This document shows, piece after piece, positions 3,628 through 50,038 of a stretch of DNA of 50,038 nucleotides (the stretch's first letter is position 1; each line of letters opens with the position of its first letter). Source of the stretch: a virus; the IMG/VR virus record IMGVR_UViG_3300029309_000068, positions 1-50,038 of that record; one strand, written 5' to 3'. A program made the translations under genes and the position numbers. The notes under the pieces are model-generated. The model saw nothing but the letters and a program-made list of their open reading frames with translations, was not told the origin of the DNA and did no database searches.

Positions 3628-3658
3628 TTGACAAAACAAATTTCATAAGTAAAACTAT
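3628..3658 (+). promoter_or_regulatory. Promoter before the major capsid gene
   Basis: TTGACA at 3628-3633, then 16 bases, then TAAAACTAT at 3650-3658. The same arrangement (TTGACA-N16-TWWAACTAT) occurs at 18019, 47124 and 47479. The -35 hexamer is a perfect sigma-70 consensus, suggesting host RNA polymerase. It begins at the last codon of the scaffold gene and would give the capsid gene its own transcript. Confidence 0.65.
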
Positions 3659-3659
3659 G

Positions 3660-3686
3660 GCATATACACCATAATCGTGTGTATGC
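3660..3686 (+). other. Strong hairpin just downstream of the capsid promoter
   Basis: GCATATACAC and GTGTGTATGC form a 10-bp stem with one U-G pair and a 7-base loop. Only three T follow, so termination would be weak. It would lie at or very near the 5' end of a transcript from the 3628 promoter and could protect the capsid mRNA. Confidence 0.5.
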
Positions 3687-3732
3687 TTTAACAAGCACTA
3701 GCCACAAAAAGACTTACCTCAAAGTATAGGCC

Positions 3733-3768
3733 CAGTTCAGATAGGTAGGCCAACCTTTCTGTAAACTG
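3733..3768 (+). other. Second hairpin in the capsid leader
   Basis: CAGTT-CAGA-t-AGGT pairs with ACCT-t-TCTG-(TA)-AACTG around the 6-base loop AGGCCA. The core AGATAGG...CCAACCT also occurs, in the other orientation and without the 4-base TAGG insert, in the folded leader at 46253-46270. Confidence 0.5.
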
Positions 3769-3790
3769 ACTACCCTACAACCAAGAGCCT

Positions 3791-3837
3791 CTTTATAGTG
3801 GATATGTAGTGTCAATTCTCACGCCATATCTATAAAG
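3791..3837 (+). promoter_or_regulatory. Hairpin that can hide the capsid ribosome binding site
   Basis: CTTTATA (3791-3797) pairs with TATAAAG (3831-3837), and GATATG (3801-3806) pairs with CATATC (3825-3830), with a GTG bulge and an 18-base loop. The right arm covers the first half of the Shine-Dalgarno sequence AAAGGAG (3834-3840). Folding would lower capsid translation; whether it does so in cells is inference. Confidence 0.5.
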
Positions 3838-3848
3838 GAGATTTAACT

Positions 3849-18018: not shown

Positions 18019-18049
18019 TTGACATTTTAACATTTGTGAGTTAAACTAT
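18019..18049 (+). promoter_or_regulatory. Promoter before the ejection/lysis block
   Basis: TTGACA at 18019-18024, 16 bases, then TTAAACTAT at 18041-18049. This is the same motif as at 3628, 47124 and 47479. The start codon of the next gene overlaps the -10 side, so a transcript begun here would miss that start and first serve the large gene at 18313. Confidence 0.55.
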
Positions 18050-18302
18050 GAGTGACATCAAACTCTCCCCAGAAGAACTAGAAGAGATGCTAGATAACGC
18101 AGCTAGGCGTGGTGCTAAAGAGGCACTACGTTCTATTGGGCTACTTGATGATGATGCACAAAAAGATATACTAGAGATGCGTAACTTGATAGAAGCGTGG
18201 AGAGATACACGTAGATCAATATGGTCTACAGTAGTTAAATTAGCTACCGTTGGAGTCCTGACATTTATTGCAGGTGCGGTATGGATGACAATGGGAAAGT
18301 AA
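18048..18302 (+). CDS. Small membrane-anchored protein (DUF6127-like), possible holin partner
   Basis: An 84-residue protein: an acidic helical N-terminus (LSPEELEEMLDNAARRGAKEALRSIGL), a central amphipathic helix (LIEAWRDTRRSIWSTVVK) and one C-terminal membrane segment (LATVGVLTFIAGAVWMTMG). The ARRGAKEALRSIGLDDD...LLEAWRDTR pattern resembles a family I recall as DUF6127. C-terminal-anchored proteins of this size near lysis genes are often holins or antiholins. The start overlaps a promoter-like element, so translation from read-through mRNA is likely. Confidence 0.6.
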   Translation: MSDIKLSPEELEEMLDNAARRGAKEALRSIGLLDDDAQKDILEMRNLIEAWRDTRRSIWSTVVKLATVGVLTFIAGAVWMTMGK

Positions 18303-28853: not shown

Positions 28854-28856
28854 AAT

Positions 28857-28885
28857 AGGGGCGCATTTAGCGCCCTTACTTTTTT
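28857..28885. terminator. Two-way rho-independent terminator between convergent operons
   Basis: GGGCGC (28859-28864) pairs with GCGCCC (28870-28875) around the loop ATTTA. On the plus strand a run of six T follows (28880-28885); on the minus strand AAAA at 28852-28855 gives a shorter U-run. It lies between the stop of the 1128-residue gene and the last codon of the minus-strand operon, where both transcripts must end. Confidence 0.85.
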
Positions 28886-29082
28886 ATACCATTGAGTCTT
28901 GAGCTACGCTCTGCCCACAGTTGTACTATGATTAAGTGTTTTATAGCCTCCCTTGTTTCAGTAGTGTGATACAGATTGTCAGTTATATACTTGTCTAACG
29001 CTTCTATGCGTTCCTGTATCCCTTCTTTGAAATGATCGTGTCTCCTAGATACAAAGTCTTTTGCTTCTTTTTCTAGGCTCAT
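28876..29082 (-). CDS. Small helical protein, last gene of the early operon
   Basis: A 68-residue protein rich in charged helix (MSLEKEAKDFVSRRHDHFKEGIQERIEALDKYI) and ending with LIIVQLWAERSSRLNGIKK. A GGAGG site lies 10 bases before the ATG, inside the end of the upstream gene. The C-terminal pattern WAERSSRLNGIK recurs in small proteins of other marine phages without a known role. Its stop codon overlaps the terminator stem. Confidence 0.65.
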   Translation of the reverse strand: MSLEKEAKDFVSRRHDHFKEGIQERIEALDKYITDNLYHTTETREAIKHLIIVQLWAERSSRLNGIKK

Positions 29083-33386: not shown

Positions 33387-34147
33387 TTAGGTAAATCAAT
33401 AACGCTGTAGTTACCCCACCCTGTTCCATAATCTAAAGAAAGATCAGCGAAAGCTATTTGATCTAGTGTGTCATGCATACGCTTCTTAGCGTTATTCAAC
33501 AGGTCTGAACTGACTACATGCATGTGTGAAACATAAGGACTAGATTTTTCACAAGCTATAAAAGAAAACTCTTTGACTTCAATACCTGCTAATTCTATTA
33601 CGTATTTGTAAAACGCTGCCTGAATATCGTATGCGTATTTAAAACACTCTTTAGAAAAACCTGAAGGAGAAGCATCTATGGTTGTTTTAACATCATAGAC
33701 TGCACCCTCTTCGGTTATCATAAGGTCTGGTCTTGTCTTTAATTCTAGTCCTGATCTAGGACATCTTTCAAAAATACTAACTTCGTTAACTCTATCTTTG
33801 TGTCTTAGTGCTTTACCACATTTGTTATTTTCCAAAGCAGACTTAGCCATCTTGTGTGCCATATAATATTCTGCTTCACTAAGAAGAATCTGATCTTCCT
33901 GTAATTCTTTTTCTAGCTCTTTAAAAGCTTTAGATGTTTTAGTTTTTGGACCCTTTACAACTAGGTCTTTATCTTCTTCTAAGAGTAATGCATGAACTGC
34001 ACTACCTAAATTAAAAGCTGACGATTGTTTTTGTTTTTGCCCTCTCCAGTGTGCTAGTGATTTTTTATATACTGTCTTGACTGCCGAAGAAGAGATACCA
34101 CTCATTGAATGATACCTCGTATTCGATAAGTCTTTGATTACACCCAT
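33377..34147 (-). CDS. RecE/RecB-type PD-(D/E)XK exonuclease
   Basis: A 256-residue exonuclease of the type that resects double-stranded ends (DUF3799, exonuclease VIII C-terminal class). Motifs are SSAVKTV with FNLGSAVHALLLE (H52), E122, RPDLMI (D141), YDVKTT (D152-x-K154) and YDIQAAFYKY (Q176, Y180), which together complete the RecB-like nuclease set. It starts at the stop of the 289-residue protein (TAATG) and overlaps endonuclease I. Such exonucleases usually pair with an annealing protein, and the adjacent 34147-35016 protein is the natural candidate. Confidence 0.85.
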   Translation of the reverse strand: MGVIKDLSNTRYHSMSGISSSAVKTVYKKSLAHWRGQKQKQSSAFNLGSAVHALLLEEDKDLVVKGPKTKTSKAFKELEKELQEDQILLSEAEYYMAHKMAKSALENNKCGKALRHKDRVNEVSIFERCPRSGLELKTRPDLMITEEGAVYDVKTTIDASPSGFSKECFKYAYDIQAAFYKYVIELAGIEVKEFSFIACEKSSPYVSHMHVVSSDLLNNAKKRMHDTLDQIAFADLSLDYGTGWGNYSVIDLPKWL

Positions 34148-35016
34148 TAGTCTGCCTCTTCTACGTTGACAAACTCAGCAACGATAGCAGCATCATCATC
34201 AGAGATAGTCTCCTTATTCTTTTCATCCCACTGTTCTAAGATGTAAGAATTTTGCGTAGTAATGTAAGCTAAGAACTTATGTAGAGTATCTTGATCTTCA
34301 GGTTGTAACTCTACCTTGTCACCTACATCTAGACTCATAACGGCAAAGCTATTACCTGTTTTAGAATCAACTGCATTGGCACTTAATTTTAACATGCACT
34401 GAATAGGTAATACGTTCTTACGTCCAAGTGCATTTACTGTTAAGTCTAAAGGTTTTATACTTGAAGGTGGTACTTCAAAAGAGAAAGGCATATTAGTAAT
34501 ATCATCTACTGGATTACCTGCTTCATCAGTAACACCTGATGCAGTAAACTCACCAAAGAGAATCTTCTTACGTTTGATGCTACGAATCAAATCCTTTGTC
34601 TTCTCAGGTACGCTATCCCAATCTTCAATGTAACCTGATGGTCTGCCAAGATTAAATGTACCAACGTTATCTTTGAGGTCACCTTTTAGATCATTAGCCA
34701 TGACTGTCTTCATCATCATCTCTTCTTTGGCATCCCACTTTGACCACTGCTGTCGGATTGCAAAAATACGTATGGTAGGACTAGTTGCGTAGACAACATC
34801 ATCTTCACCTCTTGTAATCTTGTATGCACCTGCAGGTACAACCTCAGTCTTGATAGGCTTACCGTTAACTTCAATCTCACCCATGATACCTGTGTGCATC
34901 AAGTTGACTCTAGCTAAAATGGAACTCTTTCTTTCTCCACCGCTTTGAGGATTTACACCTACTGCCTCTGCGAGAGACATACCTAAATCATTTTGTATTG
35001 CTAGTTCTGTATTCAT
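34147..35016 (-). CDS. Putative ssDNA-binding or annealing protein
   Basis: A 289-residue protein with no motif I recognise. It is coupled to a RecE-type exonuclease on one side and lies 45 bases from the DNA polymerase on the other. Much of it looks like beta strands (ARVNLMHTGIMGEIEVNGKPI, AYKITRGEDDVVYATSPTIRIFAIRQQWSKW), and it ends in an acidic tail (SDDDAAIVAEFVNVEEAD), a feature of ssDNA-binding proteins such as T7 gp2.5 and bacterial SSB. No other SSB or annealing gene is visible in the window. The role is inferred from position, acidic tail and absence of alternatives. It has its own AAGGAAG site. Confidence 0.5.
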   Translation of the reverse strand: MNTELAIQNDLGMSLAEAVGVNPQSGGERKSSILARVNLMHTGIMGEIEVNGKPIKTEVVPAGAYKITRGEDDVVYATSPTIRIFAIRQQWSKWDAKEEMMMKTVMANDLKGDLKDNVGTFNLGRPSGYIEDWDSVPEKTKDLIRSIKRKKILFGEFTASGVTDEAGNPVDDITNMPFSFEVPPSSIKPLDLTVNALGRKNVLPIQCMLKLSANAVDSKTGNSFAVMSLDVGDKVELQPEDQDTLHKFLAYITTQNSYILEQWDEKNKETISDDDAAIVAEFVNVEEAD

Positions 35017-41736: not shown

Positions 41737-41910
41737 CTACTCTACTTGTAGCTCTAGACATGCCACTGTCTCACTTTTGTTTGATACTAGGATGGCAGCT
41801 TCACTCATTGCCGCAAGGCATTCTTCCTCACTGGCATATGTCTCAACGTGATAATACTTCACTGTTTGAGATGTCACTAGTAGCTGCATCCATATTAATG
41901 CCCAAACCAT
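41737..41910 (-). CDS. Short exported protein with two cysteines (paralogue 3 of 3)
   Basis: A 57-residue protein with a hydrophobic N-terminus (MVWALIWMQLLV) and two Cys, in VETYASEEECLAAM and TVACLELQVE. The plan (hydrophobic start, TYxSxEEC, a 20-24-residue gap, second Cys near the end) matches 29089-29280 and 38487-38681. The start overlaps the upstream stop as TAATG. Probably exported, with a possible disulfide; the function is unknown. Confidence 0.55.
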   Translation of the reverse strand: MVWALIWMQLLVTSQTVKYYHVETYASEEECLAAMSEAAILVSNKSETVACLELQVE

Positions 41911-42134
41911 TATGCTGCATCCTCAGCAGAACGCCATACATATCGTGTGTAGCGTTGGCCTGTCACTGGGTGTCTACTCTTTATACCATCAATAGCATAC
42001 CCCATTCTGCGTAGCTCTGCGATACGTGCAGTGAATGACTGTATGCTGTAGTCAAGCAATGCCTCACGTTGTGTCAAACCTTTGGTTGCTTTAAGGTGTT
42101 TAAGTATCTTTGTGTATTGTGTAGTTCTAGCCAT
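41910..42134 (-). CDS. Small winged-helix/HTH DNA-binding protein
   Basis: A 74-residue basic protein of helix-turn-helix type: YTKILKHLKATKGLTQREALLDYSIQSFTARIAELRRMGYAIDG, then a wing-like SRHPVTGQRYTRYVW. The pattern T..(I/L)L..L....GLT..EAL...I..F.ARI.ELR..G fits HTH_39-type phage proteins. It is a candidate regulator of early transcription and one of the few genes that could read the palindromes at 46790-46880. A GAGGAG site precedes the ATG. Confidence 0.7.
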   Translation of the reverse strand: MARTTQYTKILKHLKATKGLTQREALLDYSIQSFTARIAELRRMGYAIDGIKSRHPVTGQRYTRYVWRSAEDAA

Positions 42135-46142: not shown

Positions 46143-46195
46143 CCTCCTGTTAGTACATAAAGGTACACCTAATTGGGAGGTTTTTTAGATGTACC
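46143..46195 (-). promoter_or_regulatory. Leader hairpin with anti-Shine-Dalgarno loop
   Basis: In the minus-strand RNA, GGUACAUCU (46195-46187) pairs with AGGUGUACC (46170-46162) through 9 pairs including one G-U. The plus-strand copy would have a C-A mismatch there, so the fold belongs to the early transcript. The 16-base loop contains CCUCC (46180-46176), which is complementary to the GGAGG ribosome binding site at 46147-46143. Loop-to-site pairing could switch off the first early gene. Confidence 0.5.
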
Positions 46196-46204
46196 CATAT
46201 GTAA

Positions 46205-46305
46205 CAACAGATTTAGTAAGTCACACCCTGAACCCATACGTCAAGAGCATAAGGATAGGTTGGCCTATCTTAGCTCAGGGTGTAACCGAATAGTCACAAT
46301 CTGTT
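46205..46305 (-). ncRNA. Nested stem structure in the early leader
   Basis: Three stems nest in order: 8 bp (46206-46213 with 46298-46305), 9 bp (46223-46231 with 46275-46283) and a terminal 6-8 bp stem (46254-46259 with 46264-46269, loop of 4). No reading frame covers it. It lies 70 bases before the first early gene, so it may be a cis-acting RNA of that transcript; a DNA-level role at the origin is the alternative. The strand is not certain. Confidence 0.45.
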
Positions 46306-46493
46306 AGCTCTAACGTGTGCACATCTGTGTACTGTGCATAGTATCCACCCTTTAAGAGCACCCTATAGCCAGGCATAAATATACCAGTCCTGGCCTTGCA
46401 GGTTAGCCCATGCAATTAAGCAAAATCGGCAACATACGTTCATCACGAGTATACTATCAGGCATACTAGCTGTCTTAAGTTATTCTATAATCG

Positions 46494-46547
46494 TTAGTCT
46501 GTTTGTTGTTCTTTCTAGTTAGTTTGTTTGTAGTCGTTTAGTCTGTT
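46494..46547 (+). repeat. TTAGTYTGTT direct repeats in GT-rich tract
   Basis: TTAGTCTGTT at 46494 and 46538 is exact, and TTAGTTTGTT at 46519 differs by one base. The surrounding 46485-46565 is strongly rich in T and G on the plus strand and contains no gene. Confidence 0.5.
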
Positions 46548-46700
46548 AGTCATTTAGTTATTTGATAGGGCATTTCACCGTATCTGTCTAAGGACTCTGT
46601 TAGTATGAGGATCAAGAGTTTTTAAACTTACTCTCAAGCTAACTTGTCGCTTTCGATGTATCTACATTAACCCGAACATCTTTTGAATTGCAATAGGTTT

Positions 46701-46773
46701 TTTGCAGATTGTGTGCAGATTGTTGTTAAGCTATTGATATTAAACAAAAAGAATTTGCAGATTGTGTGCAGAT
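46701..46773 (+). repeat. Iteron pair with four GCAGAT boxes
   Basis: The 20-base sequence TTTGCAGATTGTGTGCAGAT occurs exactly at 46701 and 46754. Each copy carries GCAGAT twice, 11 bases apart, so boxes fall at 46704, 46715, 46757 and 46768. The 11- and 53-base steps are close to 1 and 5 helical turns, which would place bound proteins on one face of the DNA. Confidence 0.7.
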
Positions 46774-46789
46774 AGTATGCTTGTCCTTA

Positions 46790-46880
46790 TTTGTGATCAC
46801 AAAAGGTATGTGTGACCATGCATGTCTGTTGTATTTGTGACCACAAACTTGATGGGGGTATGCTTTTTTGTGATCACGGT
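46790..46880. promoter_or_regulatory. Cluster of palindromic operator-like sites
   Basis: TTTGTGATCACAAA at 46790-46803 is a perfect 14-base palindrome. TTTGTGACCACAAA at 46834-46847 differs by one base. TTTGTGATCACGGT at 46867-46880 keeps the left half and core. A half site TGTGACC lies at 46811. Such a set suggests a dimeric repressor or activator controlling one or both divergent promoters. Confidence 0.65.
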
Positions 46881-47029
46881 ACAACTATTGAAGCTATATC
46901 AGTAGTAAAACACAGTAAAAACAATAGTTTACATGCTATATTACTAGATAGAATAACAATAAATATTTATGCCTAGTAAGAACCAATAATAAATATGCAA
47001 TAATATCAAAGACTTAACAGAATCAAGGT

Positions 47030-47054
47030 GGGTAGGGCGAGGGCCACGGTGGGG
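47030..47054 (+). other. G-quadruplex motif
   Basis: Four G runs, GGG-TA-GGG-CGA-GGG-CCACGGT-GGGG, meet the standard intramolecular G-quadruplex rule. It stands out because the flanks (46881-47025 and 47171-47350) are strongly AT-rich. Confidence 0.6.
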
Positions 47055-47123
47055 TACTACGTTATACGTATATGTACAAATACACACACGAGGTTTTTTC
47101 ACTGGGTGACGCAACGTAACTTG

Positions 47124-47154
47124 TTGACAGACCCTTGACTGTGGCTATAACTAT
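47124..47154 (+). promoter_or_regulatory. Rightward promoter in the control region
   Basis: TTGACA at 47124-47129, 16 bases, then TATAACTAT at 47146-47154 (TATAAC is 5 of 6 to the sigma-70 -10 box). This is the best of the four TTGACA-N16-TWWAACTAT sites and reads toward the genes at 47485 onward. Confidence 0.7.
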
Positions 47155-47173
47155 GGGGGTAAGGGGGCATGTT

Positions 47174-47307
47174 AAACATTAATGTTAAAACATTATAAAA
47201 GTAATTAAACATAAATCATCTAAACATTAAATGTATAACATAGGGGTATCTACTTCCCTATACTAGTAACGATAAGAAAAGTTATTGACACTCTTAAAAC
47301 ATTAATG
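47174..47307 (+). repeat. AAACATTAATG-type repeats
   Basis: AAACATTAATG at 47174 and 47297 is exact; AAACATTAT at 47188, AAACATAAAT at 47207 and AAACATTAAATG at 47222 are variants. The first copy is part of the perfect palindrome AACATTAATGTT (47175-47186). They follow the 47124 promoter, so a bound protein could block or modulate it, or they may be a second iteron set. Confidence 0.55.
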
Positions 47308-47478
47308 CTACACTTACATTAGTTACAATCAATATAATAACTATACAACTTGTTGTAACTACGTGTGTAGATTATCTGTGTAAGTTTAAACCACAGTGTC
47401 TCCTCCTCCCTCTATGTAGTTTGTACTTAGGCCTGGTAGTCTACACACGTATTTGTTGTAGTTTATGTAAAGTTTTTC

Positions 47479-47509
47479 TTGACAATGCGAAACAAAGGCG
47501 TAAAACTAT
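47479..47509 (+). promoter_or_regulatory. Fourth copy of the phage promoter motif, overlapping a start codon
   Basis: TTGACA at 47479-47484, 16 bases, then TAAAACTAT at 47501-47509, identical in its -10 side to the capsid promoter. It lies over the first codons of the 47485 gene, so a transcript started here would serve only the genes from 47735 onward. Confidence 0.55.
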
Positions 47510-47742
47510 ATGCATCCGAAGATGTACTACACGACTTCTACGATGCATTAGCTAATAATGATGCTCGTGCTATACGGAAGGTACACATTCCAAAGTCGGA
47601 TGTGTTTTACGTAAGAGAAGCAATATATAATCGTACTGGTGAGTGGTATACACTGGACCATGTAGAACGTGCCATGTATCTTGAAGGTATGCTTACTAGA
47701 TATGAGGTACTAGATCCAGACAGGGAACGTGAGTATGGATAA
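47485..47742 (+). CDS. Hypothetical protein, first rightward gene
   Basis: An 85-residue protein starting MRNKGVKLYASEDVLHDFYD; the TTG two codons earlier is not needed. The core HIPKSDVFYVREAIYNRTGEWYTLDHVERAMYLEGML is a conserved pattern in small proteins of marine phages. It is helical and acidic at the end. No clear Shine-Dalgarno sequence precedes it, and a promoter motif overlaps its start. The function is unknown. Confidence 0.65.
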   Translation: MRNKGVKLYASEDVLHDFYDALANNDARAIRKVHIPKSDVFYVREAIYNRTGEWYTLDHVERAMYLEGMLTRYEVLDPDREREYG

Positions 47743-49767: not shown

Positions 49768-50038
49768 ATGAAAAAGAAAAAGGGAATGGCCGTAGGTGGC
49801 ATGAAGAAAAAGAAAGACATGAAAGGCATGGGCATGAAAGATGGCGGTGTGTCTAAAAAGAAAAAAGGCATGGCAGTAGGCGGTGCTAAAATGAAGAAGA
49901 AGGGTATGGCTGTCGGTGGTGCTAAAATGAAAAAGAAAGGCATGGCTGTCGGTGGTATGAAGAAAAAAGGTATGGCCGTTGGGGGCATGAAAAAGAAGGG
50001 TATGTCCGTAGGCGGTTTGAAGAAAGCACCAAACAAAG
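49768..50038 (+). CDS. Lysine-rich KKKGMAVGG repeat protein (cut by window edge)
   Basis: The frame runs from ATG 49768 (GAGGAA site upstream) off the right edge after 90 codons with no stop. It consists of KKKGMAVGG repeats, at least six, with small variants (KKKKDMKGMGMKDGG, MSVGG, GAKMKKKGMAVGG). About 40% of residues are Lys. Proteins with this repeat are found before terminase genes in many marine phages. It may bind DNA or the capsid interior. Confidence 0.7.
   Translation, partial: MKKKKGMAVGGMKKKKDMKGMGMKDGGVSKKKKGMAVGGAKMKKKGMAVGGAKMKKKGMAVGGMKKKGMAVGGMKKKGMSVGGLKKAPNK

Follow-up and report, generated by a model that had tools for sequence, protein, structure and literature searches.

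Two questions are raised by a sequence arrangement that recurs in a phage genome, TTGACA followed by 16 bases and TWWAACTAT: whether it marks promoters, and which RNA polymerase reads it. The window, the whole stretch of DNA analysed here, is a 50,038-base linear IMG/VR record of an HMO-2011-type podovirus, and is probably incomplete by a few kb, being ~50 kb against 53-57 kb in most full relatives. Family matches of its proteins comprise portal, capsid, tail, DNA polymerase, helicase, ribonucleotide reductase and integrase. Among named phages it is closest to CRP-2, CRP-603 and CRP-207, which infect Roseobacter strains, and to HMO-2011, which infects SAR116. By a published description, HMO-2011-type phages belong to the dominant groups of marine phages (PMC9038755), while a literature search found no paper describing their promoters. 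From sequence similarity and the description in PMC9038755, we assigned CRP-1, -2, -207, -345, -603, -9 and -13 and HMO-2011 to one group, which appears to be subgroup I of that paper, and CRP-3, -212, -235 and -738 to a separate one, which appears to be its subgroup III. Three members or relatives, CRP-9, CRP-13 and ctYwJ313, have the structural genes, while the group's DNA polymerase and helicase were not detected in them, which suggests module exchange.

Occurrence and conservation of the motif

An earlier note on this DNA had reported exact copies of the motif at 3628, 18019, 47124 and 47479, all on the plus strand, and had judged them very unlikely to arise by chance. The copies lie where it placed them, with no exact match on the minus strand of the window; 100 dinucleotide shuffles of the window gave a mean of 0.00 matches, and the reversed pattern gave none. 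The scan of related genomes that it had proposed covered 20 large contigs or full relatives and found one to four exact copies in 13 of them, each time on the strand that encodes the structural genes, and again no reversed pattern. The motif is conserved in the phage group: in dozens of HMO-2011-type relatives, TTGACA-N16-TANAACTA is retained by copies that are not homologous to one another and whose spacers are unrelated. Because these sites are non-homologous and their spacers unrelated, the shared pattern is not the simple descent of one duplicated stretch. Column-by-column conservation gives the consensus TTGACA-N16-TANAAC-TA, and a weight matrix scores 24-25 bits for the sites that we call P1, P2, P3 and P4 and 18 bits for 18019, here P5 (Table 1).

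Outside the group the motif is rare. When 2.9 million IMG/VR contigs were scanned for the exact 31-base pattern, 109 of 119 new contigs among the matches listed encode relatives of window proteins, so that the pattern is usable as a marker of the HMO-2011 group, to which ~90% of the contigs among those matches belong; one more contig among them, L523, shows the P2 sequence. Full matches were absent from 18 bacterial genomes, mostly Rhodobacteraceae, and in five of them TTGACA-N15-19-TANAA was rarer than its reversed control, which led us to reject a host-wide motif. Wider phage kinship was likewise rejected, since the Sinorhizobium/Rhizobium and SAR11 relatives lack the motif; HTVC103P has only two one-mismatch matches, plus one control match. 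The motif was also not found in unrelated roseophages on the same hosts, of which CRP-5 has N17-TATAAT.

Table 1. Predicted promoters, neighbouring genes and RNA elements of the window
Feature	Position	Strand	Remarks
Promoter P3, before capsid gene	3628-3658	+	-35 TTGACA 3628-3633; 16-bp spacer; -10 TAAAAC 3650-3655, then TAT; predicted +1 ~3662
Hairpin at predicted 5' end of capsid mRNA	3659-3687	+	GGCATATACAC-loop-GTGTGTATGC; fold z -3.5
Conserved structured core of capsid leader	3706-3797	+	covariation above all 500 shuffles
Major capsid protein gene, 354 aa	3849-4913	+	PHROG 267
Promoter P5, other register	18019-18047	+	-35 TTGACA 18019-18024; 17-bp spacer; -10 TAAACT 18042-18047 (-7T); predicted +1 ~18054
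84-aa gene (DUF6127)	18048-18302	+	its ATG gives the AT of the apparent CTAT
Bidirectional terminator-like hairpin	28856-28888		between convergent gene blocks
289-aa gene, function unassigned	34147-35016	-	first after P4; exonuclease and endonuclease I genes next
Promoter P4	35051-35081	-	-35 TTGACA 35081-35076; N16; -10 TATAAC 35059-35054, then TAA; predicted +1 ~35047
Promoter P1, rightward	47124-47154	+	-35 TTGACA; N16; -10 TATAAC 47146-47151, then TAT; predicted +1 ~47158
Promoter P2, over start of 85-aa gene	47479-47509	+	-35 TTGACA; N16; -10 TAAAAC 47501-47506, then TAT; predicted +1 ~47513
85-aa gene, function unassigned	47485-47742	+	homologs in relatives; first codons carry the P2 -10

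Five sites and two registers

The capsid site was compared in 43 distinct sequences from relatives, retained if within two mismatches of the motif. All read TTGACA-N16-TA[ACT]AACTA, with the C, T and A after TANAA kept in 43 of 43, while the third -10 base is A in 30, C in nine and T in four, and the spacer varies freely. Counterparts of P1 occur in CRP-2, CRP-603, CRP-207, CRP-1, CRP-345, CRP-13, HMO-2011 and the genomes G001-G004; the form at this place is N17-TATAAT in HMO-2011 and N16-TATAAT in CRP-2 and CRP-13.

The earlier note regarded 47479 as intergenic, but the P2 -10 falls on codons 6-9 of the 85-aa gene, the ATG of which directly follows TTGACA. In most relatives the start codon of this gene also comes at once after TTGACA, with the -10 on codons for V/I-K/Q-L-Y, and the 16-bp spacing is unchanged where the start codon is displaced downstream by three or six bases or the protein has one residue less (e.g. 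L188, L187, L178). Relative to how the remainder of these genes uses codons, A occupies the third position in 81 of 83 sequences at codon 6 (42 expected) and, at codon 7, in 77 of 83 (39.5 expected), while the leucine codon is CTA in 67 of 75 against a background of 16%. These sequences are related and do not count as independent trials, but elsewhere in the genes the synonymous sites do vary. This bias shows that the DNA itself is under selection and, together with the moving start codons, rules out P2 as a coding by-product. In G003 and G004 the gene starts without the P2 motif codons, and a matching promoter lies just downstream of the gene. A transcript from P2 would start inside the 85-aa gene and serve the genes beyond it, and the 85-aa protein would need the P1 transcript. 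That promoters lie over start codons suggests a way to express late genes while the first gene stays untranslated. The 85-aa protein was considered as a regulator and set aside, as its predicted model is too weak to use (pLDDT 65, pTM 0.44, with residues 1-10 of lowest confidence).

On the minus strand, where the earlier note had seen no copy of this form, P4 reads TTGACA-N16-TATAACTAA, one mismatch from the motif. It is kept within one mismatch in 85 of 94 relatives, and all 38 distinct sequences read TTGACA-N16-TATAACTA; CRP-1 and CRP-345 have N17-TATAAC at this place. Its -35 lies inside the 3' end of the DNA polymerase gene and its -10 just past the stop codon, and the next gene's start codon follows ~31-37 nt after the -10, with a Shine-Dalgarno sequence in several relatives. 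P4 shows the layout of a textbook promoter, evidence that the class is not reserved for late, rightward genes. It does not follow, then, that early genes use a different class, as the earlier note had proposed, since this minus-strand site is conserved. The interval 46168-47124 yielded no assignable early promoter on the minus strand.

P5 stands apart from the other four, which the earlier note had treated with it as one class. It fits the motif only because W permits T at -11, and by our count from the listing of 32 relatives with TTGAC[AT] at this place, the 16-bp register never has A at -11, on which ground we rejected its membership of the P1-P4 class. Read with a 17-bp spacer, the same site has TAAACT, TACAAT or TAGAAT in 26 of 32 relatives and T at -7 in 32 of 32. 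By this reading, P5 is a putative fifth sigma-70 promoter, of ordinary form; it is absent or replaced in about half of the relatives.

Which polymerase reads the motif

We consider it highly probable that the motif represents sigma-70 core promoters read by the host RNA polymerase. TTGACA would serve as the -35 element and TANAAC, after a 16-bp spacer, as the -10 element, with C replacing the usual T at -7 and T and A fixed at -6 and -5; transcription would start ~7 bases after the C. P1 and P2 would drive the rightward late genes, P3 the capsid operon, and P4, on the opposite strand, the recombination and nuclease genes after the DNA polymerase gene. The earlier note had placed CTAT outside the sigma-70 consensus, which holds for the T and A, while the C is the last base of the -10 hexamer and not part of an extra box. 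Of the readers that it had named, an alphaproteobacterial host polymerase is the best reading, given the Roseobacter and SAR116 hosts of the relatives and the fact that a base other than T at -7 is typical there (PMC8407463).

The elements themselves agree with this assignment. The -35 is an exact TTGACA at all five window sites and in relatives (43 of 43 at the capsid site, 38 of 38 at the minus-strand site), and -12T and -11A are present in the same 43 of 43 and 38 of 38, though at 18019 only in the 17-bp register. Spacers are 16 bp at four sites, 17 bp at 18019 and 17 or 18 bp in some relatives, all within the sigma-70 range of 16-18 bp, and the forms seen in relatives (N17-TATAAC, N17-TATAAT and N16-TATAAT) vary in spacing and at -7 within sigma-70 limits. 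Classical E. coli-type sigma-70 promoters share with the motif TTGACA, the 16-bp spacer and a -10 matching up to five of the six bases of TATAAT, -12T and -11A included. They differ in the T at -7, in place of which P1-P4 have C; T occurs there only at 18019 and at P1 in some relatives.

In Alphaproteobacteria, A, C, G and T occur at -7 with about the same frequency (PMC8407463); more than 60% of -10 elements lack -7T, a lack that CarD has been proposed to offset (Myers et al., 2021, PMC8407463). The sequence of P1-P4 falls within the alphaproteobacterial form with A, C or G at -7, the setting being taken from the relatives' Roseobacter and SAR116 hosts. Alphaproteobacterial promoters without -7T resemble the phage motif in a TTG-containing -35, a TANAA core, spacing near 17 and a start ~6 bases after the -10 (PMC8407463). 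In contrast, the phage motif has a perfect -35, a spacer of mostly 16 and almost always C at -7, followed by T and A, where the host uses all four bases at -7. A near-perfect -35 combined with -7C would be a form accepted by the alphaproteobacterial polymerase, probably aided by host CarD.

The sister phages point the same way. Upstream of the capsid gene, by our own reading of the sequences, the subgroup III phages have TTGATT-N18-TATAAT (CRP-3), TTGCAA-N17-TATAAC (CRP-212) and TTGATT-N17-TACAAT (CRP-738). In CRP-3, CRP-212 and CRP-235 the promoters lie, as in the motif-bearing phages, between the same two genes before capsid, and CRP-3 and CRP-212 share host strain FZCC0040 with the motif-bearing CRP-207; the subgroup III forms differ in a weaker -35, in spacers of 17-18 and, in some, in a TGnTATAAT-like form, with TG before TATAAT or TATAAC. 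No RNA polymerase, sigma or CarD family match was found among the window proteins scanned, in a record that is probably a few kb short and has several large proteins without matches; the sites thus lack the phage polymerase or sigma match expected of T7- or N4-type phage-polymerase promoters. Taken together, the sigma-70-like promoters of subgroup III, the shared host FZCC0040, the lack of a polymerase, sigma or CarD match and the alphaproteobacterial -7 data make the host sigma-70 polymerase the simplest reader.

Against host reading stand the fixed T and A and the near-invariant -7C, a strictness beyond what host sigma-70 is known to require, the absence of the full motif from all 18 bacterial genomes, and the other forms used by subgroup III and by unrelated phages on the same hosts. 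These facts could instead reflect an unrecognised phage-encoded protein that acts on the host polymerase or sigma and reads -7C, -6T and -5A, so that TANAACTAT would be a phage-specific extended -10 class. The near-invariance of C, T and A at four non-homologous sites fits such a factor, as do the near-confinement of the exact motif to the HMO-2011 group and the other promoter forms of phages on the same host, sister phages included; the many genes of unassigned function leave room to hide it. Yet a search for a transcription factor by co-occurrence with the motif yielded no regulatory gene that fits: CRP-9, CRP-13 and ctYwJ313 carry the motif without the shared replication module, and most motif carriers lack the one DNA-binding regulator that was predicted, a small winged-helix protein (41910-42134). 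Natural TATAAT variants at the P1 place in CRP-2, CRP-13 and HMO-2011 also oppose a strict reader. We therefore regard a phage factor as unlikely; if there were one, a single phage-specific promoter class would serve genes on both strands in subgroup I. The fixed bases could alternatively reflect selection for a single strong and well-tuned form of promoter, with no factor needed.

More improbable still is that AACTAT belongs to a phage-repressor operator overlapping an ordinary promoter. Fixed bases downstream of the -10 would be expected from an overlapping operator common to the sites, and the window and several relatives carry integrases, such relatives being likely temperate, but the fixed bases have no dyad symmetry and no repressor gene co-occurs with the motif. 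Three operator-like palindromes of the form TTTGTGATCACAAA, repeated at 46788-46877 in the large intergenic region, are better candidates, and they do not lie at these promoters. That the sites are chance or coding by-products has next to no probability left: 47479 does lie on codons and 18019 does adjoin a start codon, but the empty shuffles, the conservation and the synonymous-codon bias already contradict this for P1-P4. Under host sigma-70 reading, the promoters are ordinary in principle and new in detail, a putative lineage-specific -7C class used on both strands. The motif provides a transcription map of which gene blocks would start where on both strands, and its sites offer -7C promoters on which the role of CarD in marine Alphaproteobacteria can be tested.

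The capsid leader and other elements

From the predicted P3 start to the capsid ATG there are ~185-220 bases, the window leader being 3662-3848. Its 5' hairpin folds better than shuffles in nine of 10 sequences tested, with double changes that preserve pairing. Over 21 sequences, standard pairs make up 97.6% of the leader's pair cells, and two-sided changes occur at 12 of 26 pairs. None of 500 shuffles and none of the slid controls reached the covariation score, although deriving the structure from the same alignment favours it against the latter. In a 0.77-Mb search, a covariance model matched ahead of the capsid gene in CRP-9 (E 6e-5), HMO-2011 (0.003) and Sinorhizobium phage phiM6 (0.009), and more weakly in CRP-13 (0.07). 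The conserved segments are ACUACC and GCC(C/U), and Rfam gave no match in the window or leader. These comparisons make the leader a candidate for an unnamed cis-regulatory RNA of alphaproteobacterial podoviruses. Its structure gives indirect support for a transcription start near P3, without fixing it, as the hairpin stem starts either a few bases ahead of the predicted +1 or only past it, depending on the sequence.

At oriented coordinates 22773 and 23529 of HMO-2011, in the structural region shortly upstream of start codons, lie promoter-like sites of consensus N17-TACAAT and N17-TATAAT; ordinary -7T promoters may coexist there with the -7C class. In the window, two iteron-like 23-base direct repeats, TTTGCAGATTGTGTGCAGATTGT, lie 53 bases apart at 46701-46776 and are possibly an origin. 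An open frame at 49769-50038, lysine/glycine-rich with repeated KKKGMAVGG units, ends at the contig edge.
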